Shown here: piece by piece, positions 8,535-29,611 of the stretch | Position numbering within the stretch: the first letter of the stretch is position 1 | Layout: the number at the start of each line of letters is the position of its first letter | Origin: Cyanobium sp. CH-040 | GTDB taxonomy: Bacteria > Cyanobacteriota > Cyanobacteriia > PCC-6307 > Cyanobiaceae | Assembly (NCBI RefSeq): GCF_024346135.1 | Contig: NZ_JAGQCJ010000001.1 | Location: forward strand, 310,001-374,000 | Length of the DNA: 64,000 nt | Direction of reading: 5' to 3' | Notes under the pieces: generated by a model | What the model was told of the DNA's origin: nothing | What the model saw: only the letters and a program-made list of their open reading frames with translations | Database searches by the model: none | Made by a program: the position numbers and the translations under genes

Positions 8535-9038
8535 TCAGCCGCCGCCCTGGTTGCGGCGCATCCGCTCCAGTTCCTGCTGGGCCTCGAAGTCGGCCCAGGC
8601 CCGGTCCAGGTCGGCCTTTGGTTCGGCGGCGGCGCTCCTGGGCACGCTGTCCGGTTCGGCCGGCGCGCTCAGTTCGGCCTCCACCTGGCGGAAGGCCACC
8701 CCCAGTTCGCCCAGGGCCTGCCAGCGGTCGCGGCCGCGGGCGCGCAGTTCGGCCACATGCAGCTCGGCCCGCTCCGCCAGCTCGGCGGCACCGGCGGCCC
8801 GGGCCCGCTCCACCCGCTGCTGCCATTCGCCGATCTCGCCGGCCAGATGCAGCAGTTCCGAGCGGGTCTGCTCGGCGCTGGTCTGCAGGTCGAGGCGGCG
8901 ACGCCGCAGGCGCTGCTGGCGTTCCTGGCGCTCCTGCTGGCGCAGCAGCCGCTCCTGCTGGGGGTTGGCGCTCAGAAAGGCGTCGAGCTGCTGTTCGAGC
9001 TGCTGCTCCAGCCGGCTGAACCAGTCGCTGTCGGTCAT
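8535..9038 (-). CDS. Hercynine metabolism protein (cyanobacterial egt-associated, larger)
   Basis: The 167-residue protein is almost entirely helical and charged. A Gln/Arg-rich coiled coil covers about residues 9-110 (QQERLLRQQERQERQQRL) and the C-terminus is an unstructured-looking tail. It has no catalytic motif. It occupies the position of the cyanobacterial family that NCBI names 'hercynine metabolism protein' (TIGR04376, by recall), found only beside egtB/egtD. It overlaps the next upstream gene by 4 nt. The assignment is by context plus general resemblance, and its biochemical role is unknown. Confidence 0.7.
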   Translation of the reverse strand: MTDSDWFSRLEQQLEQQLDAFLSANPQQERLLRQQERQERQQRLRRRRLDLQTSAEQTRSELLHLAGEIGEWQQRVERARAAGAAELAERAELHVAELRARGRDRWQALGELGVAFRQVEAELSAPAEPDSVPRSAAAEPKADLDRAWADFEAQQELERMRRNQGGG

Positions 9039-9322
9039 GGCTGGGGGTGGCGCTCTGTGGGGGGCTCGCTGGCGGTGTCGCTGGCGCCGTCGTCCACGGG
9101 GGTGGGGGCGCGGGTGATGAGCGGTGCCTCGATCTCCTCCTGCAGCGGGGTGATCGCCGCCTCGCGGGAGCGCAGCAGCAGCTGGGTGAGGCGGGCGATG
9201 CCGCCCTCGCCGAGGTCCTGGCCGGCGATCCGCTCGAAGCTGGCGGCGTAGAGCTCCTCCAGCTGGGCGATCAGGCCTTCGCGCACGGCGCGCACGGCCT
9301 GGCGCTGGGCTTCCCTCGACAT
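9035..9322 (-). CDS. Hercynine metabolism small protein (egt-associated)
   Basis: The 95-residue protein begins MSREAQRQAVRAVREGLIAQ. A helical N-terminal half contains the conserved-looking LYAASFERIAGQDLGEGGIARLTQLLLRSREAAI, and the tail is disordered and Pro/Thr-rich. It fits the small partner family seen in cyanobacterial egt clusters (TIGR04375, by recall). The start at 9322 avoids a Cys/Arg-rich extension that would overlap egtD. It sits 19 nt after egtD and overlaps the next gene by 4 nt, so all four are likely cotranscribed. No enzymatic motif is visible. Confidence 0.7.
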   Translation of the reverse strand: MSREAQRQAVRAVREGLIAQLEELYAASFERIAGQDLGEGGIARLTQLLLRSREAAITPLQEEIEAPLITRAPTPVDDGASDTASEPPTERHPQP

Positions 9323-9341
9323 GGCGGCAACGGGACGGGGC

Positions 9342-10340
9342 TCAGATCGAGTCTGCCTGGGCGGCGTCGGCCTGGCCCAGCAGATGCAGTGACAGATCTC
9401 CGGCCGCATCGCTCCAGCGCCCCAGCGGTCGCCAGCCGGCCGCCCCGGCCAGCCGCAGAAACGCCTCGGGGGTGTACTTCACGCTGTATTCGCTGATCAG
9501 GTCCTCGCCGGCGGCGAAGGTCCAGCGCCCTCCGGCCAGCTCCACCGTCTGTTCGCGCAGGCTCACCAGGGCCATGGCGATGCGGCTGTGCTGCGGCTGC
9601 CAGCGGGCCCGGTAGCGGAAGGCGGTGAGATCGAAGCTGCCGCCCAGGTCGCGGTTCAGGCGGGTCAGCAGGTTCATGGCGAAGGCCGCCGAGACGCCGG
9701 CGGCATCGTCGTAGGCGGCCTCCAGTCGCGCGGCCGCCTTGGGCTGGTCGATGCCGATCAGCAGCTGCCCGCCGGGGCCCAGCAGGCGGCGGAACTGCTC
9801 CAGTAGGGCGCGAGCCTCGGCCGGGTCGAAGTTGCCGATCGAGCTGCCGGGGTAGAAGCCCAGCCGGCGGCGGCCCGCCAGCTCGGGCAGGGCCGGCAGG
9901 GACGGCTCGGCGTTGTAGTCGCAGCACACCCCCAGCACTTCGGTGGCCGGATGGGCGGCCTGCAGCGCGGCGCAGGTGGCCTCGAGGGCGCTGCGGCTGA
10001 TGTCCAGGGCCAGGTAGGCGGGGGGCCGCAGGGCCGCCAGCAGCGGCCCGGCCTTGCGGGCATTGCCGGCGCCGAACTCCAGCACCGCCGGCGCCGGCTG
10101 GCCGATGGCCGCCGCGATCTCCTCCCCGCAACCCTCCAGCAGCGCCACCTCCGTGCGGGTGAGGCTGTATTCGGGCTGCTCGCAGATCGCCTCGAACAGC
10201 CGCGAGCCCTCGGCGTCGTAGAGGAGCCAGGCGGGCAGCTGGCGCGGACGCCGCTCCATGCCGGCCCGCACCAGGGCGCTGATGTCGGCCGGGGCCGGAT
10301 GCAGGTCGATCAGCCGCGGACGGGTGCTGGTGAAGGTCAT
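9342..10340 (-). CDS. egtD: L-histidine N-alpha-methyltransferase EgtD
   Basis: The 332-residue SAM-dependent methyltransferase trimethylates histidine to hercynine, the first step to ergothioneine. Diagnostic stretches are LLYDAEGSRLFEAICEQPEYSLTRTEVALL near the N-terminus, the SAM loop LEFGAGNARKAGPLLAAL, GFYPGSSIGNFDPAEA, LLIGIDQPKAAARLEAAYDDAAGVSAAF and SEYSVKYTPEAFLRLA. Length matches the family. The ATG overlaps the egtB stop by 4 nt, indicating translational coupling. Confidence 0.93.
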   Translation of the reverse strand: MTFTSTRPRLIDLHPAPADISALVRAGMERRPRQLPAWLLYDAEGSRLFEAICEQPEYSLTRTEVALLEGCGEEIAAAIGQPAPAVLEFGAGNARKAGPLLAALRPPAYLALDISRSALEATCAALQAAHPATEVLGVCCDYNAEPSLPALPELAGRRRLGFYPGSSIGNFDPAEARALLEQFRRLLGPGGQLLIGIDQPKAAARLEAAYDDAAGVSAAFAMNLLTRLNRDLGGSFDLTAFRYRARWQPQHSRIAMALVSLREQTVELAGGRWTFAAGEDLISEYSVKYTPEAFLRLAGAAGWRPLGRWSDAAGDLSLHLLGQADAAQADSI

Positions 10341-21625: not shown

Positions 21626-21632
21626 GTTATGC
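21607..21632 (+). repeat. Left-edge integron core site (attC or attI half-site)
   Basis: The sequence ends in AGC-GTTATGC (GTTATGC at 21626-21632), the same core heptamer as at the 3' end of the complete attC at 22325-22410. It lies 24 nt before the first cassette gene. No clear complementary left half with GCATAAC is found upstream, so this may be a decayed attC or the attI side of a lost integron. Confidence 0.45.
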
Positions 21633-21656
21633 GGCTGCTGTTGAAATGACAAACGT

Positions 21657-22310
21657 ATGAAGTGGCTGAAAAAGGCTGTCCTTTGGCTCTGGACTGAGAC
21701 TCTTGGCAATGTTGGCAAGGTCATCGCAGCCGCAGTTGCTGCCTTAATACTCGGACTGTTTCCGTTGCCAGTAATCCGGACGTGGCTTAAAGCGGAGAGC
21801 ACTTGGCCAAACTGGCTTCTATCTATCCTGCTTCTGATTTCCCTTACTGCTCTTTTGTTCATTGGCAGGGACGCAATTGACCGTTGGAAGGCCAGGAAGT
21901 TCTCGCTTTTGATTACTGATCAGAATCTTGGCCTCCTTTGGAGAATCCATAAACCGATCGAGCTATGGGTGGGTATAAACCTCAAGAACGCCAGTCAGGC
22001 GACAATCGACTCAGTAATCGATGGGCCATACGATTCCATCAATGGGTGTTACGCTCCCTTATCTGTGGGCGTTCAAGACGTAGCCTCTGTATGCACGAGA
22101 TGCGGACGCAAGGTGGCTATCGCGAGCGTCACTCCGCGCAAGGAAAGCCATCGGCTGACAAACTCTCCGATTGCACAGGGAGCGAACTTTCCAATAGTGC
22201 TTATGAAAAAGTGTATTCTAATAGCACTCCAACAGCGCCATCTTCGAGGCCAGCGGATAAAGTCTGGACTTCGAATTAGCGATGTCCCATATCCATCTGT
22301 CTTTCAGTAA
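21657..22310 (+). CDS. Cassette gene: two-TM orphan protein
   Basis: The 217-residue protein has two N-terminal membrane helices (about 20-45, VIAAAVAALILGLFPLPVI, and 54-70, LLSILLLISLTALLFIG) and then a soluble domain. The soluble domain includes a WVGINLKN segment and one C-x-x-C pair (CTRCGRK). No family is recognised. Base composition is much lower in GC than the neighbouring core genes. It lies between a GTTATGC core 24 nt upstream and a full attC 14 nt downstream, exactly the geometry of an integron gene cassette. The gene could be a fragment, since its second half has little obvious structure. Confidence 0.6.
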   Translation: MKWLKKAVLWLWTETLGNVGKVIAAAVAALILGLFPLPVIRTWLKAESTWPNWLLSILLLISLTALLFIGRDAIDRWKARKFSLLITDQNLGLLWRIHKPIELWVGINLKNASQATIDSVIDGPYDSINGCYAPLSVGVQDVASVCTRCGRKVAIASVTPRKESHRLTNSPIAQGANFPIVLMKKCILIALQQRHLRGQRIKSGLRISDVPYPSVFQ

Positions 22311-22324
22311 GCTCATATTGCACC

Positions 22325-22410
22325 GCATAACATCAAGATACAGCGGACGGGCCGAGAAACTGCTAGTGATCCCCTTGGGATCCTCCCCGCCGCTGATCTT
22401 GGCGTTATGC
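22325..22410 (+). repeat. Integron attC site 1
   Basis: This 86-nt imperfect palindrome opens with GCATAAC (22325-22331) and closes with the exactly complementary GTTATGC (22404-22410). The inner arms AAGAT-A-CAGCGG-A-CGGG and CCCG-CCGCTG-ATCTT pair with two unpaired bases on the 5' side. Terminal AAC/GTT triplets and extrahelical bases on one arm are the defining features by which integron integrase reads the folded bottom strand. It follows cassette gene 1 by 14 nt. Confidence 0.85.
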
Positions 22411-22454
22411 CGATCTACTACCATTGATCCGAGTCAATCGAGATATGCTCCTTT

Positions 22455-22505
22455 CTTTTCGAAAAGACCGATCACGTGTACCTAGTCGTTCTCAAGACAA
22501 CTAGG
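22455..22505 (+). promoter_or_regulatory. Inverted repeats in front of the NTPase cassette gene
   Basis: Two inverted repeats lie in the 99-nt leader. CTTTTCGAAAAG (22455-22466) is a perfect 12-bp palindrome. CCTAGTCGTTCT...AAGACAACTAGG (22481-22505) is a near-perfect inverted repeat ending 4 nt before the ATG, so it overlaps the AGGAA ribosome-binding site. It could be an operator or an RNA hairpin that hides the start. Role inferred only. Confidence 0.4.
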
Positions 22506-22509
22506 AAAG

Positions 22510-24798
22510 ATGTACGCGTTGCACACCCTTGGATGGAATGACTTTCAGCGGCTATGTCTCACGATCACAAGAGAGATTCTGGGCCAGACAGTCGAGTCGT
22601 TTCTTGATTCTCATGATGGCGGGAGAGATGGAGCATTTACAGGGACCTGGAATGTTGCGGGAGGGGAGAGCCTGAGAGGCTCCTTCGTAATCCAATGCAA
22701 GTTTACTAGCAAGATTAATTCAGTCTTGAGGCGGTCGGATCTGAGGGACGAAGTCGAAAAAGCAAAGAAGCTTGTGGGGAAGGGTCTTTGCGATTCTTAT
22801 GTGCTCATGACGAACGCGGGGGTCTCCGGAGTAGCAGATGAATGGATTAAAGCCCTCTTTAAAGACGCCGGGGTCAACTACGTTGCGACATTCGGCTCAA
22901 GTTGGATAAGCCAGCAGATTCGTGATAACAAACGCCTTCGCATGCTTGTCCCGAGACTATACGGTCTAGGAGATTTGAGTCAGATTCTCGACGAGCGTGC
23001 CTACGCCCAAGCTCGAACCATTCTTGAAGCGATGCGCGAAGACCTTGACAAGGTCGTTGTCACTGCCTCCTACAGGAAAGCAATTGAAGCAATTAACGAG
23101 CACGGTTTCGTCTTGCTTATTGGCGAGCCTGCTGCAGGAAAGTTGACTATCGCGTCCATGCTGGCAATGTCGGCACTCGACCAATGGAATGCATCGACGC
23201 TCAAGCTCGATGAGCCCAGCAAGGTCACAGAGCATTGGAACCCGGACGAGCCGTCACAGTTCTTCTGGCTGGACGACGCCTTCGGAGTTACCCAATATGA
23301 GGAGCCTATGGTCCGCCGATGGAATCACATCTTGCCGCAAATTAGGCCGATGCTCCGAAAAGGAGCGAAGATTGTAATGACTTCCCGCGACTACATCTAC
23401 AATCGAGCACGAAATGATCTTAAGGAAAGCGCGTTTCCGCTGCTAAGGGAGAGCCAAGTCGTGATTGATGTTCAGGACCTAACTGGGGAGGAAAAGTGCC
23501 AAATCCTCTACAATCATCTTAAACTTGGAAGTCAACCACGTTCCTTTCGTACAGAGATTAAGCCCTTCCTCAAGGATATCGCAAGCCATCCACGTTTCAT
23601 CCCAGAAACTGCGAGGCGTCTAGGTGATCCGCTTTTCACGAAGTCTTTATTCATTAACAAGAGTTTTATCGACCAGTTCGTGGAGAGGCGCGAACAGATA
23701 CTGCAAGAGATACTTCAGTGCCTCGACGACGACAGCAAAGCGGCACTTGCGCTGATATATATGCGCAAAGGATACTTGAGCAGTCCAATTCAACTTCGAG
23801 TTTCAGAGAAACAGGCTCTTGATCGACTCGGTAGTGATTTGGGCGGATGCATAACCGCACTCGAAGCTTTGAAAGGTAGTTTTGTGCTTCTCTCTCATGC
23901 AAACGGCGAGCATGTATGGCAGTTTAGGCATCCAACAATCGGTGATGCTTATGCCGCGGCATTGCTCCAGAGTCCTGAACACCTTGGTATCTATATCGAA
24001 GGATCTGAGCCTGAACGGCTGCTCTATCAAGTGACTTGTGGCGACATCGGTATCGAAAAGGCGGTCGTACTGCCGTCCTCGCAATTTCCATCGATACTAG
24101 AGAAACTTGCTGAATTCTCGCGCACTAAGCGGTACAAGACCGAATTTCTATCGTGCTTTGATGCAAAGGAGGAGTTACAAAGATTTCTCGCCAACCGCTG
24201 CTCCAAGGAGTTCTTGGAACTCTATCTCAAGGCCAATCCTAACACGCTCAATGAAGTCGAAAATCCCGGGCTAATGCTTGACGCAGTGGCAGAGGTACGC
24301 CTAGCAATGCGCCTCCATGAAGTCGGTCTCCTGCCGGAGGACAAAAGGAAGCAGTTCGTAGAGACGGTGAGTAATTACGCTGTCGAAGGGCAGGACGCAG
24401 CCGCATTGAATGATGAAGGGATCCGATTGATGTTTACCATCGATGAGTTTGCTGAATTGGGGAGAAGAATGCGAGCAGAACTTTTGCCGAGGCTTGTAGA
24501 TGTACGCCGTGATTGGGAATTCAACTACTCTTCTGATCAAGATCCAGAGGAATATATTCAGCCGCTTCTCGATATATTTGATTCTCTCAAGAGGCTGGGT
24601 GGCGTCGACAATGCTACAACTATGCTTGTCGAACACGAAGAACGTAAAGCCAGAGAATGGATTGACGAGCAAACCCCGGAAGAGGAGGAGAGAGGAGCAT
24701 ATCGTGAATTGGAAAATATCGAGATGCAGGACAAACCGCGAAGCGCTCGCGATATCTTTGACGATATTGATGCTGATGAGAGCGGCGGTTCTGAATGA
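22510..24798 (+). CDS. Cassette gene: Mrr-like nuclease fused to STAND-type NTPase (candidate phage defence)
   Basis: The 762-residue protein has an N-terminal region (about 1-135) resembling an Mrr/PD-(D/E)xK nuclease: the G-G-R-D motif puts Asp at 40, and VIQCKF gives a Q62-x-K64 pair. A P-loop NTPase follows, with Walker A G205-EPAAG-K211-L-T, Walker B FFWLDD (251-256) and a TSRDY segment (291-295), as in nSTAND3-type ATPases. The last 400 residues are helical and may sense a trigger. The residue after the Walker Lys is Leu rather than Ser/Thr, though Thr follows it. STAND proteins with nuclease domains are widespread anti-phage sensors; function here is inference. The gene has low GC, is intact, and lies between attC 1 and attC 2. 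Confidence 0.75.
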   Translation: MYALHTLGWNDFQRLCLTITREILGQTVESFLDSHDGGRDGAFTGTWNVAGGESLRGSFVIQCKFTSKINSVLRRSDLRDEVEKAKKLVGKGLCDSYVLMTNAGVSGVADEWIKALFKDAGVNYVATFGSSWISQQIRDNKRLRMLVPRLYGLGDLSQILDERAYAQARTILEAMREDLDKVVVTASYRKAIEAINEHGFVLLIGEPAAGKLTIASMLAMSALDQWNASTLKLDEPSKVTEHWNPDEPSQFFWLDDAFGVTQYEEPMVRRWNHILPQIRPMLRKGAKIVMTSRDYIYNRARNDLKESAFPLLRESQVVIDVQDLTGEEKCQILYNHLKLGSQPRSFRTEIKPFLKDIASHPRFIPETARRLGDPLFTKSLFINKSFIDQFVERREQILQEILQCLDDDSKAALALIYMRKGYLSSPIQLRVSEKQALDRLGSDLGGCITALEALKGSFVLLSHANGEHVWQFRHPTIGDAYAAALLQSPEHLGIYIEGSEPERLLYQVTCGDIGIEKAVVLPSSQFPSILEKLAEFSRTKRYKTEFLSCFDAKEELQRFLANRCSKEFLELYLKANPNTLNEVENPGLMLDAVAEVRLAMRLHEVGLLPEDKRKQFVETVSNYAVEGQDAAALNDEGIRLMFTIDEFAELGRRMRAELLPRLVDVRRDWEFNYSSDQDPEEYIQPLLDIFDSLKRLGGVDNATTMLVEHEERKAREWIDEQTPEEEERGAYRELENIEMQDKPRSARDIFDDIDADESGGSE

Positions 24799-24903
24799 AT
24801 AGCTTACCCTCAAGTATAGTGCCTAGGAGCCGCTTACCTCCTGCTTCAGCGCTACGCTTCACAGGTCACACGAATCGAATGTATCTATAGTGCGAATGGG
24901 ACG

Positions 24904-24993
24904 GCATAACAAGCCCCTCGAGTGGACAGGCCATCATGAAATCCCTATTGTGACCATGAATTCCTTGCCTGCCACTCAGGGGCAGCGTTGGAA
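24904..24993 (+). repeat. Integron attC site 2
   Basis: The site of about 90 nt opens with GCATAAC (24904-24910) and closes with GTTGGAA (24987-24993). Arms GCCCCT-C-GAGTGG-A-CAGGC and GCCTG-CCACTC-AGGGGC pair with two extra bases in the 5' arm. It ends the NTPase cassette about 105 nt after that gene's stop. Its 3' half is nearly identical to attC 5 (28614-28703). Confidence 0.85.
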
Positions 24994-25050: not shown

Positions 25051-25290
25051 TTGTCACCAACCGTCTTCAGGGATGGCGAGTTTCGTTTCTTCTTCTTCTC
25101 ACGGGAGGAGAGTCGTCCTCACGTCCATGTCAGTCATCCTGATGGTGAGGCGAAGTTCTGGCTCAGCCCAACCGTTGAACTCGCTCGCAACATCGGGCTA
25201 AGCTCACCGAGGATCAAAGAAGCAGAGCGCCTGGTCGAGACACGACAACTGGAGATCATCGATGCCTGGAACAACCACTTTGGCAGCTGA
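25051..25290 (+). CDS. Cassette gene: DUF4160 domain protein
   Basis: The 79-residue protein begins at TTG (SPTVFRDGEFRFFFFSREES). It carries the DUF4160 core: FRFFFFSREE, PHVHVSHPDGEAKFWL, VELARNIGLSSPRIKEAERLVE and AWNNHF. This family is found next to DUF2442 genes in toxin-antitoxin-like pairs on mobile DNA; its biochemical action is not established. TTG is chosen because no in-frame ATG precedes it after the upstream stop. It overlaps the DUF2442 start by 29 nt. It is the first gene of the cassette after attC 2 and appears uninterrupted. Confidence 0.8.
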   Translation: MSPTVFRDGEFRFFFFSREESRPHVHVSHPDGEAKFWLSPTVELARNIGLSSPRIKEAERLVETRQLEIIDAWNNHFGS

Positions 25291-25555
25291 GGTCACGAAT
25301 GTCTCTGGACATTGTGTCTGGATGCTTATCGATGATGAAGAGCTGGCGCTTCCCTATTCAGAGTTTCCCTGGTTTAAAGCGGCAACTATTCAGCAGATCC
25401 TTAACGTGCTACGTCCGACCTCGGACCATCTTTATTGGCCTGATTTAGATGTTGACTTGTCTGTCGAGTCGATACGCCATCCGGACAGGTTCCCGCTGAG
25501 GGCCAACAGCACTTTCCAACCTTGCCATACACCTGACCCGCCTCCATCAGTTTAG
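25262..25555 (+). CDS. Cassette gene: DUF2442 domain protein
   Basis: The 97-residue protein contains the DUF2442 signature VTNVSGHCVWMLIDDEELALPYSEFPWFKAATIQQILNV and HLYWPDLDVDLSVESIRHPDRFPL. It is the usual partner of DUF4160. GGAG lies 7 nt before ATG 25262, within the end of the DUF4160 gene. The normal domain ends near residue 80; the last 15 or so codons (FQPCHTPDPPPSV) are read from the following attC, so the cassette's recombination site supplies the stop codon. Confidence 0.82.
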   Translation: MPGTTTLAAEVTNVSGHCVWMLIDDEELALPYSEFPWFKAATIQQILNVLRPTSDHLYWPDLDVDLSVESIRHPDRFPLRANSTFQPCHTPDPPPSV

Positions 25556-25616
25556 TGAGCCCACTGAGACTCGGAACCCGCGGCTCTTCGCGGGCAGGTG
25601 ATGGCCAGCGTTGGGC
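25514..25616 (+). repeat. Integron attC site 3
   Basis: The site of about 103 nt opens with TTCCAAC (25514-25520) and closes with the consensus core GTTGGGC (25610-25616). Inner arms GCCAT-A-CACCTG-A-CCCGC and GCGGG-CAGGTG-ATGGC pair with extra bases in the 5' arm, and a GAACCCGCGGCTCTTCGCGG hairpin region lies near the tip. It belongs to the same sequence family as attC 4 and attC 6. Confidence 0.87.
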
Positions 25617-26605: not shown

Positions 26606-27005
26606 AAGCGAGATCTACGTTAAGCCTAGGCCAGTACGTTAGGATCAACAACGGCGCACACCCCTGCTGTCTACTCCCCCAACAACCTGCACCGTCAAAG
26701 CCGTTGGAATGAATTCAAGCAGGAGTGCGACAAGGGTTCAGACACGCTCCGGTGATCGGCGGACCCGCCGCTCGATCCAGACACGCCCGACTCCCTGCCA
26801 CAGACTGAATGACCTTGCTGGCTAGGCCTTTCATCTTGATGTAAACCAGCAAGGGATTGCCCAAGAACATCATGCACTCGACCCGATGCAAGTGATTTGA
26901 CGATTTGCGAGGGCCGCCGAGAGCGGGTGTGGTGAGCGTTAGCCGTATTGGGTAAAGACAGGGATCCCGCCTGCTTTAGTACTGGCCTGCGGTACCATGG
27001 ATGGC
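26606..27005. other. 400-nt interval between two cassette genes
   Basis: No convincing gene is present. It holds core-like heptamers GTTAAGC (about 26619), GTTAGGA (about 26637), GTTGGAA (26703) and GTTAGCC (26938), the last being a plausible 3' end of a decayed attC before hicAB. A perfect 9-bp inverted repeat (CCTTGCTGG 26813-26821, CCAGCAAGG 26846-26854) is also present. The stretch may contain the remains of one cassette and its attC. The segment just before 27006 should hold the hicAB promoter. Confidence 0.4.
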
Positions 27006-27191
27006 ATGAAGCGGAAGCGCCAGCGCACCCTTGAGTTGATCTTCGCTCGGCCTGTCAGTGGCAACCTGCCATGACGGGACGTTGAAGCTCTGTTTCTAGA
27101 GCTGGGAGCAGAGGTCAGCGAGAGGGCTGGCAGTCGTGTTGCCGTTGCTTCGATCCGCAAATGGTTTGAGGAACACGGAGTCACGCCATGA
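27006..27191 (+). pseudogene. hicA: hicA toxin gene, doubly disabled
   Basis: Read in one frame, the 62 codons give KRKRQRTLELIFARPVSGNLP, then TGA where HicA proteins usually have Trp or a similar residue, then RDVEALFLELGAEVSERAGSRVAV joined directly to ASIRKWFEEHGVTP. HicA homologues carry about 23 further residues at that joint, including the HRPHP block with the catalytic His. The joint lies on a GTTGC repeat, which suggests slippage. HicA is an mRNA interferase. Here both the stop and the deletion should abolish it. The TGA end overlaps the hicB ATG, as in intact hicAB operons. Confidence 0.82.
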
Positions 27192-27520
27192 ATCTGATGA
27201 TGGTTGATGGATACAGCGCGAAGATTGAGTATGACTCGGATGCCGACCTCTTCCGTGGTGAAATTCTAGGCTTATCTGGCGGCGCCGACTTCTATGGCGC
27301 GAACCCTGATGAGCTGCGAAGGGAGTTCAAGCGATCGCTGGATGTGTTCCTGGAGGTTTGTCGCGAGAAGGATATCGAACCCCGAAAACAGTTCTCTGGC
27401 AAGTCCAATCTGCGGATCCCTCCTGATCTCCACGAGAAGTTGGCCCTGACTGCACAGGCACAAGGCAAAAGCCTCAATTCTCTGGCCCAGGAGGCACTGG
27501 AGAAAAGTGTCACCGCGTAG
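27188..27520 (+). CDS. hicB: HicB-family antitoxin
   Basis: The 110-residue protein has an N-terminal RNase-H-like HicB fold (GYSAKIEYDSDADLFRGEILGLSGGADFYG, ELRREFKRSLDVFLEVC). Its C-terminal ribbon-helix-helix DNA-binding domain (SGKSNLRIPPDLHEKLALTAQAQGKSLNSLAQEALEKS) normally represses the operon and neutralises HicA. It appears intact although its partner hicA just upstream is broken. It overlaps the hicA stop by 4 nt. The stop is 7 nt before attC 4. Confidence 0.88.
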   Translation: MNLMMVDGYSAKIEYDSDADLFRGEILGLSGGADFYGANPDELRREFKRSLDVFLEVCREKDIEPRKQFSGKSNLRIPPDLHEKLALTAQAQGKSLNSLAQEALEKSVTA

Positions 27521-27526
27521 CAACGC

Positions 27527-27628
27527 GGCTAACACAGCCATGCACCTGACCCGCCCCCTGCAGATTTTTGAACCGAAAGAGATCTCGAACCCCAGCTCTC
27601 TGCGGGCAGGTGATGGCCAGCGTTGGGC
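27527..27628 (+). repeat. Integron attC site 4
   Basis: The site of about 102 nt runs from GGCTAAC (27527-27533) to GTTGGGC (27622-27628), close to the RYYYAAC/GTTRRRY consensus. Arms GCCAT-G-CACCTG-A-CCCGC and GCGGG-CAGGTG-ATGGC pair, with extra bases G and A only in the 5' arm. Its 3' arm is identical to that of attC 3. It closes the hicAB cassette and is followed after 18 nt by the GNAT gene. Confidence 0.9.
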
Positions 27629-27646
27629 CTACTTTGAAAACATACG

Positions 27647-28126
27647 ATGATTCAAGTCTTTGAGGCAGATCTTTCACTTTTGGAGCACGCAAGCGCTGTT
27701 GTTGAGCTCATGGATGAGTATTCACGCGACCCCATGGGTGGAGGCAAAGCGCTACCCTCGTTTGTGAGGAACAATCTCGTTTCTGAGCTTAGGAAGCGCG
27801 ATGCTGCACATGTTATTCTTGCCTTCGTCGACGGCAAGCCAGCAGGCCTTGTTATATGTCTGGAAGGTTTCAGCACATTTGCATGTCGGCCGCTACTGAA
27901 CGTTCACGACGCGATCGTATCTGTTGAGCACCGAGGCCGTGGACTCTGCAAGCGTATGCTGGAGGTTGCGGAAGCAGTTGCTCACAGACTCGGCTGCTGC
28001 AAGATGACGCTGGAAGTACTAGAAGGTAACGTTGTAGCCCAAGCCGCCTATGAGTCCTGTGGTTTCGCGGGTTATGAGCTGGATCCACGTATGGGTAAAG
28101 CCATGTTTTGGGAGAAGAAGCTCTAG
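27647..28126 (+). CDS. Cassette gene: GNAT-family N-acetyltransferase
   Basis: The 159-residue protein has the GNAT core: VILAFVDGKPAGLVICLEGFSTF (beta 2-4), VSVEHRGRGLCKRMLEVAEAVAHRLG with the acetyl-CoA loop R-G-R-G-L-C near residue 96, and LEVLEGNVVAQAAYESCGFAGYEL. It moves an acetyl group from acetyl-CoA to a small amine or protein; substrate unknown. Acetyltransferases are among the commonest integron cargoes. It appears complete and begins 19 nt after attC 4. Confidence 0.85.
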   Translation: MIQVFEADLSLLEHASAVVELMDEYSRDPMGGGKALPSFVRNNLVSELRKRDAAHVILAFVDGKPAGLVICLEGFSTFACRPLLNVHDAIVSVEHRGRGLCKRMLEVAEAVAHRLGCCKMTLEVLEGNVVAQAAYESCGFAGYELDPRMGKAMFWEKKL

Positions 28127-28232: not shown

Positions 28233-28619
28233 ATGCTCGCGCCACCTAGGTCAAGTGTCTTGAACTACGCCAAGGACCTCCAGTCGGTCTCGCAGTTCTA
28301 TGTGAAGCTGCTGCCAGCAAAGGTGCCCCTCGCAGACATAGAGCACCGAGTCTTGCAATCAGCGGATGCTAAGCGGATCATTCACGCTATTCCTGCCCAG
28401 TACTCAGAAGGGATTGAGATAACTGCGCCGCCATCAGCGTTCGAGAAGCAAGCCATCAAGCCGTTCTTCACTGTCGCCAGCTTGGAGAATGCCAGGCATG
28501 TTGCAGGGGAATCGGGTGGCTTGACTTGTGGGCCGGTGTAGCCGGGACCGAGCATGCGAGTAAGAAATATCTACGACTCTGAGGGCGGCATCATCCGCCC
28601 TCGCCAAAGTGCACCCTAA
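28233..28619 (+). pseudogene. VOC/glyoxalase-fold cassette gene interrupted by a nonsense codon
   Basis: The open part (to 28541) reads like a VOC-superfamily protein: SVLNYAKDLQSVSQFYVKLL, HRVLQSADAKRIIHAIPAQ, IEITAPPSAFEKQAIKPFFTVASLENAR and GGLTCGPV. A TAG at 28539-28541 stops it, but the same frame continues with PGPSMRVRNIYDSEGGIIRPRQSAP to TAA at 28617. IYDSEG-xI-xxRQ matches the usual VOC C-terminal strand (DPDGN-x-xQLR). A TGG Trp there would restore one 128-residue protein. The TAA lies inside the opening heptamer of attC 5. VOC proteins include glyoxalases and antibiotic-binding proteins. Confidence 0.75.
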
Positions 28620-28703
28620 CCAGACCCTTGAGTGGAAGGGCCGCCTGCGATTCGTTGCTTGCGCTCTACAGTTCTTGCCTGCCACTCAGGGGCAGCGTTA
28701 CAG
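28614..28703 (+). repeat. Integron attC site 5
   Basis: The site of about 90 nt runs from CCCTAAC (28614-28620) to GTTACAG (28697-28703). 5' arm ACCCTTGAGTGG pairs with 3' arm CCACTCAGGGGC. The 3' half is nearly identical to attC 2. The VOC gene's final stop codon is part of the opening heptamer. Confidence 0.82.
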
Positions 28704-28765
28704 AGATGGTGGCGAAGCACCTGCATCCCAAAACTTTATACTCGCCATATAGCCACAGGGTTGCC

Positions 28766-29008
28766 ATGTGGACGCGCGTCCAGATATGGGGAAACAGTCT
28801 CGGGGTGCGCATCCCGCGTGGTCTGGCTGGGGAGGTTGGTCTTGGTGCTGGTGTTGAAGTGAGCTTGACTGCAAAGGATGGCGAGCTTGTCCTGAAGCTG
28901 GCTTTTCCTGCTCGACTCAGTCTTGATGATCTCTTGGTAGAGGTCTCTGAGAGCAATCTCCACTCGTCTGTTGATACGGGAGCGGTTGTCCGGGCTGAGT
29001 TCTTCTAG
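28766..29008 (+). CDS. mazE: MazE-type antitoxin (AbrB/SpoVT fold)
   Basis: The 80-residue protein begins MWTRVQIWGNSLGVRIPRGL, the swapped-hairpin DNA-binding fold of MazE/AbrB (GNSLGVRIP). Then come LGAGVEVSLTAKDGELVLKL and an acidic tail LSLDDLLVEVSESN that normally wraps the toxin. It both represses the operon and blocks MazF. ATG 28766 is 62 nt after attC 5. Its stop TAG overlaps the GTG start of mazF. It appears intact. Confidence 0.88.
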   Translation: MWTRVQIWGNSLGVRIPRGLAGEVGLGAGVEVSLTAKDGELVLKLAFPARLSLDDLLVEVSESNLHSSVDTGAVVRAEFF

Positions 29009-29382
29009 TGACAGCTGCATGCGTCCCTGATTGAGGGGATTTAGTGTGGCTTGAATTCACACCGCAGACAGGAAGTGGGCAGGTCGGAAGGCGACCTGCA
29101 TTGGTGATCTCGCCGAAGGCCTGCAACGCAAAGGTTGGGCTGGCTTTATTCTGTCCACCTTTATTCTGTCCACTGACTTCTCGTGTCAAGGGTTATCCAT
29201 TTGAGGTGGACTTGCCAAAGGGTAGCGGCGAGATCGGCGTCGTTCTCGCAGATCAGCTCAAGAGCCTTCACTGGCGTGCGCAGAGAGCAAAGCTGATTGA
29301 GCGTGCGTCGGCTGAGATTCTGGCGATGGTTACATCAAGAATCCTTCCTCTGATGATTCCTGACCATGCTGCCCCTCTCTGA
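29008..29382 (+). pseudogene. mazF: mazF toxin gene with nonsense codon and 15-nt duplication
   Basis: From GTG 29008 the frame reads TAACVPD then TGA (29032-29034), then GDLVWLEFTPQTGSGQVGRRPALVISP and onward to 29382. MazF proteins have P-D-R-G-D at this place, so a CGA Arg codon has probably become TGA. A 15-nt tandem repeat (CTTTATTCTGTCCAC twice, about 29147-29176) also adds five residues inside the conserved ALFCP-ITS strand. MazF is a sequence-specific mRNA endonuclease. Restart at GTG 29044 could give a 112-residue product lacking the first strand, probably inactive. It is the last gene before attC 6. Confidence 0.8.
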
Positions 29383-29478
29383 CACGGCCATTCACCTGAC
29401 CCGCCACCGCAGTATCGCTTGGCCCATGGGTTCACTTCTGCTCCACTCTCTGCGGCCAGGTGATGGCGAGCGTTCCAC
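29377..29478 (+). repeat. Integron attC site 6 (slightly decayed)
   Basis: The site of about 102 nt is the same family as attC 3 and 4. Its 5' arm GGCCAT-T-CACCTG-A-CCCGC pairs with the 3' arm GCGGC-CAGGTG-ATGGC. The 5' triplet is GAC rather than AAC (CTCTGAC), and the closing heptamer is GTTCCAC (29472-29478). It is the last site of the array; host-like GC returns about 100 nt further on. Confidence 0.78.
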
Positions 29479-29611
29479 CATCTCAATCCCCTTCCATTAA
29501 CTGGTCCACGAGTGACTGCGCCATCTCGGCCCACGTGCTAGTCCATGAACGCAGGCCCTCCACTCACGCTGGGCTTGTCCGGTCCGACCACTCCCACCAG
29601 CCGCAGGCACG

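Follow-up and report, generated by a model that had tools for sequence, protein, structure and literature searches.

A putative compact Mrr-nSTAND3 immune sensor-effector carried in an integron cassette of Cyanobium sp. CH-040

Closest described systems and architecture of the protein

Avs (AVAST) proteins are built from an effector, a STAND NTPase, and a large TPR-type sensor. The chain of Avs4 (AVAST type 4; PDB 8dgf), which follows a nuclease-STAND-sensor order, is 1,587 aa long, and in Avs5 (SIR2-STAND; PDB 9jap and 9nc9), the NTPase is of the nSTAND3 type (PMC12931631). A Mrr-like nuclease combined with nSTAND3 is represented in PADLOC by the defense candidate PDC-S73 (a model of 752 positions), a name that we found in no paper of the literature searched. 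Integrons, in turn, are established carriers of defense genes (PMC12409362), and the work of Darracq 2025, Kieffer 2025, and Getz 2025, as cited in the same source, describes defense genes streamlined to small integron cassettes.

We analyzed a window of 64 kb (the whole stretch of DNA considered here) from Cyanobium sp. CH-040, in which a gene related to these systems lies within an array of integron cassettes (table 1). We assign a probability of roughly 75% to the reading that this integron cassette encodes a putative STAND immune sensor-effector, compact and made of a single protein, its function being predicted. The basis for this reading is computed: domains, catalytic residues, likeness in fold to Avs4, Avs5, and Avs3, the mobile and defense-like contexts of relatives, purifying selection, and cassette boundaries.

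Table 1. Features of the cassette array and of the encoded 762-aa protein (positions in the window)
Feature	Position	Strand	Evidence or remark
Cassette 1 (ORF 21657-22310, 217 aa)	21627..22404	+	start matches own R'' over 9 nt
attC1, left boundary of cassette 2	22325..22410	+	R''/R' perfectly complementary; bottom-strand hairpin z=-6.2
Integron cassette 2	22405..24987	+	2,583 bp, one gene; G/TT boundaries; start/own R'' complementarity over 9 nt
762-aa Mrr-nSTAND3 protein, PDC-S73-related	22510..24798	+	intact ORF, ATG start; Pfam, PADLOC
Mrr-like nuclease domain, aa 5-115; D36, D40, Q62-x-K64	22522..22854	+	Pfam Mrr_cat; invariant residues
nSTAND3 NTPase, aa 183-338	23056..23523	+	PF20720, E=1.6e-41
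Walker A GEPAAGKLT, aa 205-213	23122..23148	+	codon 212 TTG (Leu) at 23143-23145
Walker B acidic pair D255 D256	23272..23277	+	invariant
Winged-helix-like segment, aa 384-472	23659..23925	+	AlphaFold secondary structure
Helical C-terminal half, putative sensor, aa 475-721	23932..24672	+	AlphaFold secondary structure; fastest evolving
Tail motif ARDIFDDIDA, aa 746-755	24745..24774	+	after disordered linker; F750 invariant
attC2, right boundary of cassette 2	24904..24993	+	hairpin z=-3.6
attC3	25514..25616	+	hairpin folding, covariance model
attC4, degenerate	26862..26945	+	19.4 bits with model R2 trained without attC4
attC5	27527..27628	+	hairpin folding, covariance model
attC6	28614..28703	+	covariance model; same type as attC2; weak hairpin
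attC7, end of array	29374..29481	+	covariance model

The original prediction, made from the letters of the sequence, had described a nuclease with D40 and Q62-x-K64, Walker A and B motifs, and an architecture like that of STAND anti-phage sensors. These residues are as it stated, and 25 family members share D36, D40, Q62, K64, G205, G210, K211, D255, and D256 without exception. Profile similarity bears out the NTPase and, at borderline strength, the nuclease. The nSTAND3 family PF20720 scores 142.1 bits against a curated cut-off of 27.2 and is present in all 25 relatives, and Mrr_cat falls just below its Pfam cut-off in the 762-aa protein (20.8 versus 21 bits) and is matched in 20 of 25 relatives at E ≤ 0.01 (best E 1.3e-9). 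The PDC-S73 model, which has the same domains and length, matches 25 of 25 family members (best E 8.8e-257); its alignment to the 762-aa protein (E=2.9e-32) spans aa 2–365 only and leaves the C-terminal half uncovered. The protein is a divergent subfamily related to PDC-S73, and the suggestion of an undescribed kind of gene falls away with the family already being a PADLOC candidate. The Avs models of PADLOC gave no match to the protein at E ≤ 1.

Structure prediction places the protein among STAND sensors at the level of class. Using 15 diverse members as input, AlphaFold produced a model with a pLDDT of 77.5 and a pTM of 0.57 (four close homologues as input gave a pLDDT of 44). The top PDB matches of the model were, in order, Avs4 (E=1.1e-8), Avs5, Avs3, SAMD9, the plant NB-ARC protein NRC1, and NOD2, such that the best match among solved structures shares the order of domains and the second has the nSTAND3 NTPase in common, which bears out the predicted architecture in outline. 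TM-scores to Avs proteins of 0.18–0.22 over the query are low, as expected of flexible multidomain proteins and not proof, and therefore denote a class-level similarity to nuclease-STAND sensors, not Avs membership. Avs4 also ranked second when the nuclease-domain profile was compared with the PDB, but at E=0.24.

Downstream of the NTPase, the segment at aa 384–472 may be a winged helix, judging from the modeled secondary structure, and is followed by an HPT-x-x-D motif (aa 474–479) in which P475 and D479 are conserved. The remainder is a helical region of ∼250 residues in the AlphaFold model. TPR repeats had been expected there, but no Pfam TPR match was found in the 762-aa protein or in the 25 relatives.

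Cassette boundaries and integron setting

The arrangement originally proposed, a 762-aa ORF between two attC sites in a cassette of about 2.6 kb, was confirmed. On their bottom strands, attC1 and attC2 each fold into an attC hairpin with an extrahelical base. The first bases of cassette 2, GTTATGCCG, and the last bases of its own R'', CGGCATAAC, are reverse complements that match over 9 nt, and equivalent matches are present in cassettes 1 and 3 (9 nt each) and cassette 5 (8 nt). Chance 9-nt matches do turn up in this kind of boundary search, but the match of cassette 2 stands because the attC sites fix both positions beforehand. Together, attC sites on both sides, start/R'' complementarity, and no adjacent integrase identify the locus as an integron gene cassette of the CALIN type. 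The ORF at 22510–24798 has a GC content of 49.7% versus 73–74% in its flanks, and within this region of 73% GC, cassette 2 is at 49.6% and cassette GC in general at about 50–58%.

Rfam yielded no attC match, and we therefore built our own models, R1 and R2. The covariance model trained on six of these attC sites scores its training sites at 71–92 bits (71.4 for attC1 and 91.8 for attC2, both in the training set) and has no comparable match elsewhere within the 64-kb window, while the broader R2 also detects the degenerate fourth site, for which hairpin folding gave no hairpin. A simple motif scan overlooked several of the sites. The array thus counted has six clear attC sites and a weak one, with no adjacent intI. 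Other cassette genes encode a DUF2442 protein (25262–25555), a GNAT acetyltransferase (27647–28126), a HicB antitoxin (26950–27520) with an apparently broken HicA-like toxin frame upstream, and, in the last cassette, a MazE/MazF-like toxin-antitoxin pair (28763–29382). The ORF of cassette 1 is without Pfam or PADLOC match, and a relationship to the 217-aa neighbor of a Nitrospirota relative (L014) was ruled out by the absence of a match.

The genome (2.9 Mb in 27 contigs) has one IntI match above the curated cut-off, at positions 107667–108599 of contig C23 (about 8668–9600 of locus L043). An in-frame TAG, which may be a sequencing error, interrupts its reading frame before the conserved C-terminal region, where the HTFRHSFATHL and YTH motifs lie. 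Two attC sites follow this gene, and the genome in total has 17 in six clusters on three contigs (C1, C23, and C25). Mobilization of cassette 2 by IntI is predicted. All nine congeneric genomes searched have attC sites as well (1–23 per genome, in up to ten clusters each), and across the genus the sites form separate scattered clusters instead of one array. Their spacing has a median of 976 bp and reaches 2.5 kb or more in 10 of 63 cases, a share that is an upper bound because missed attC sites inflate spacings. The cassette, first described as unusually long, is therefore long for the genus but not unique. The gene is absent from 12 of 12 congeners found.

Relatives, selection, and conserved sites

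Relatives of the 762-aa protein are scattered across phyla and replicons. One bin each of Nitrospirota, Betaproteobacteria, and Deltaproteobacteria contains a copy with 75%, 71%, and 70% identity, respectively; a plasmid of Piscirickettsia salmonis (Gammaproteobacteria) has one with 55%, and identity decreases to 31–43% on rhizobial, Streptomyces, and other plasmids and to 16–19% in core members of PDC-S73. A copy in Thiohalocapsa (L017; G389:C21) is truncated and 86% identical over aa 1–293. Besides the window, 386 genomes of the same phylum have distant relatives only (24–30%). Family members are about 685–790 aa in length, mostly 735–790 aa, and those outside integrons are equally short, by which we reject integron streamlining as the cause of compactness.

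Genes near relatives include SIR2, RecB-like, and DEAD helicase genes at one locus and AbiE, DUF4297, or TIR at further loci. One relative adjoins a tyrosine integrase and an apparent type III R-M pair (read from ORFs), and two (L015 and L040) are in a neutral context beside metabolic genes. Members were also found in viral contigs by family profiles, a first scan and a single-protein scan having found none. Those of L071 and L073 are in accessory regions of P2-like phage contigs; in such contigs, one member has an OLD-like ATPase as its neighbor, along with further nuclease-like genes, and members also occupy the accessory region that follows the portal gene. The modules of these phages were read by eye from ORF translations, not by profile search. 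The patchy distribution and mobile contexts led us to reject a housekeeping role.

Downstream of the gene at the Nitrospirota locus come a weak attC and, after it, a cassette whose boundary matches over 9 nt and whose attC scores 44 bits. We looked for an attC or cassette boundary upstream of the gene and found none there, so cassette carriage at this locus is suggestive only. The downstream cassette (L014 8708–11119; 2.3 kb) encodes an AAA_13 protein of the PrrC/RloC-like family and is another long defense-like cassette. Close relatives on plasmids and other chromosomes have no attC nearby. Integrons are therefore one vehicle among several, and the view that the gene spreads mainly by integrons gives way to one that includes plasmids, the vicinity of integrase and R-M genes, and P2-like phages. 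What had been anticipated of homologue contexts was found for defense-like neighbors, but for attC sites near the Nitrospirota locus only.

Sequence conservation sets one residue of the window protein apart. The GK[ST] position is Ser or Thr in all aligned nSTAND3 relatives and Leu in the 762-aa protein alone. The initial proposal that the Thr after Leu212 could serve as the Mg ligand is rejected; Thr213 is an unlikely ligand because the position following GK[ST] is variable in the family, whereas the GK[ST] position itself is always Ser or Thr. By inspection, a single transition would turn the Ser codon TCG into codon 212 (TTG), and the change could therefore be recent. Where synonymous sites are unsaturated, dN/dS is about 0.08–0.13 (0.13 to L014 and 0.08 to L017), and all other residues invariant across the family are retained. 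Relative to L014, dN is 0.07 for aa 136–350 (the NTPase part) and 0.25 for aa 551–762; the fastest evolution being in the C-terminal part is as expected if this part is a sensor. Because the Leu is unique to the 762-aa protein despite strong purifying selection, the copy may be weakened, and its full activity is uncertain.

The extreme C terminus is conserved in a different manner. A linker with pLDDT <50 (aa 724–745) separates it from the helical region, and F750 is invariant in the 15-member alignment, in which most members are 16–18% identical to the window protein. Of 25 relatives, 20 have the pattern [SDNG][ILM][FY] among their last 20 residues, where 1.5 are expected (the pattern was picked post hoc). 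Unchanged, the pattern is also in 10 of 11 full-length members of viral contigs collected afterwards; among these, L072 and L073 are close relatives of each other, and the L070–L073 tails were seen before counting. We found no description of the motif in open papers, by a search not aimed at the tail. It is conceivable, although unlikely, that the [SD][IL]F tail docks on a conserved partner, which could be the body of the protein itself, in the manner of a latch, or a replication factor, for example a sliding clamp. The consensus of bacterial clamp-binding peptides likewise ends with a Leu-Phe pair. If docking is true, the tail would trigger or restrain a compact nuclease-STAND immune sensor, a mode of sensing without description for Avs proteins, and, being invariant, it offers an easily mutated handle on the switching of half-sized STAND proteins.

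Predicted function and comparison with known systems

As an immune sensor-effector, the protein would recognize a product of infection with its helical C-terminal half. The nSTAND3 NTPase and winged helix would then change from an ADP to an ATP state and oligomerize, so that the Mrr-like nuclease domains at the N termini meet and cut DNA, and phage would be stopped via restriction or cell suicide. The trigger, oligomerization, DNA cleavage, and anti-phage effect are steps that we infer. A plausible, if not probable, alternative is that, within a genuine defense family, the copy in the window is weakened or dead, its Leu abolishing Mg-ATP binding and its cassette stockpiled in silence. The restriction of GKL to this copy, the single change separating TTG from a Ser codon, an upstream region in which no promoter-like site exceeds chance, an in-frame stop in the only IntI of the genome above the cut-off, and the truncation of the nearest relative by identity are all consistent with decay. 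Yet, the ORF is intact, dN/dS to relatives is low with the remaining invariant residues retained, and some STAND proteins tolerate changes in the P-loop.

Other functions would place the same domains in different roles. The co-occurrence of Mrr_cat with an NTPase, and the name restriction endonuclease given to relatives by some annotators, would fit a type IV-like, modification-dependent restriction enzyme whose NTPase powers translocation on DNA or confers specificity, with no phage protein needed as trigger. We consider this quite unlikely, as the NTPase is nSTAND3 rather than McrB-type, the fold matches are STAND sensors, and the C-terminal part evolves fastest, as a sensor should. Relatives on plasmids and in phages, together with toxin-antitoxin genes in other cassettes of the array, might instead suggest an addiction-like or anti-plasmid element guarding its mobile carrier and not the cell. 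But the cassette has a single gene with no antitoxin partner and chromosomal relatives are accompanied by defense genes, which makes this explanation very doubtful.

The original prediction identified the feature correctly and, in broad terms, its kind as well. Genes of this class and their presence in integrons were largely known already; new are the subfamily, the exact cassette, the atypical ATP site of the 762-aa copy, and the family-wide tail. The immune reading of the locus joins compact Mrr-nSTAND3 sensors, of which we found no characterized member in the literature searched, with integrons as stores of defense outside Vibrio and clinical bacteria, and links both to a genus with cassette clusters scattered round the chromosome. 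The GKL copy raises the question of whether shelved cassettes decay. Relative to Avs proteins, the effector, STAND, and sensor fold is shared but the large TPR-type sensor is not; as predicted, the protein is shorter than known Avs proteins, at 762 aa versus the full chain of Avs4, with a much smaller C-terminal half, and its effector is a Mrr-like nuclease as opposed to the SIR2 of Avs5. Like the integron defense cassettes of Darracq, Kieffer, and Getz, as cited in PMC12409362, the locus has a putative anti-phage gene as a cassette, but rather than being streamlined, this one measures 2.6 kb and encodes a protein that equals its non-integron relatives in length.
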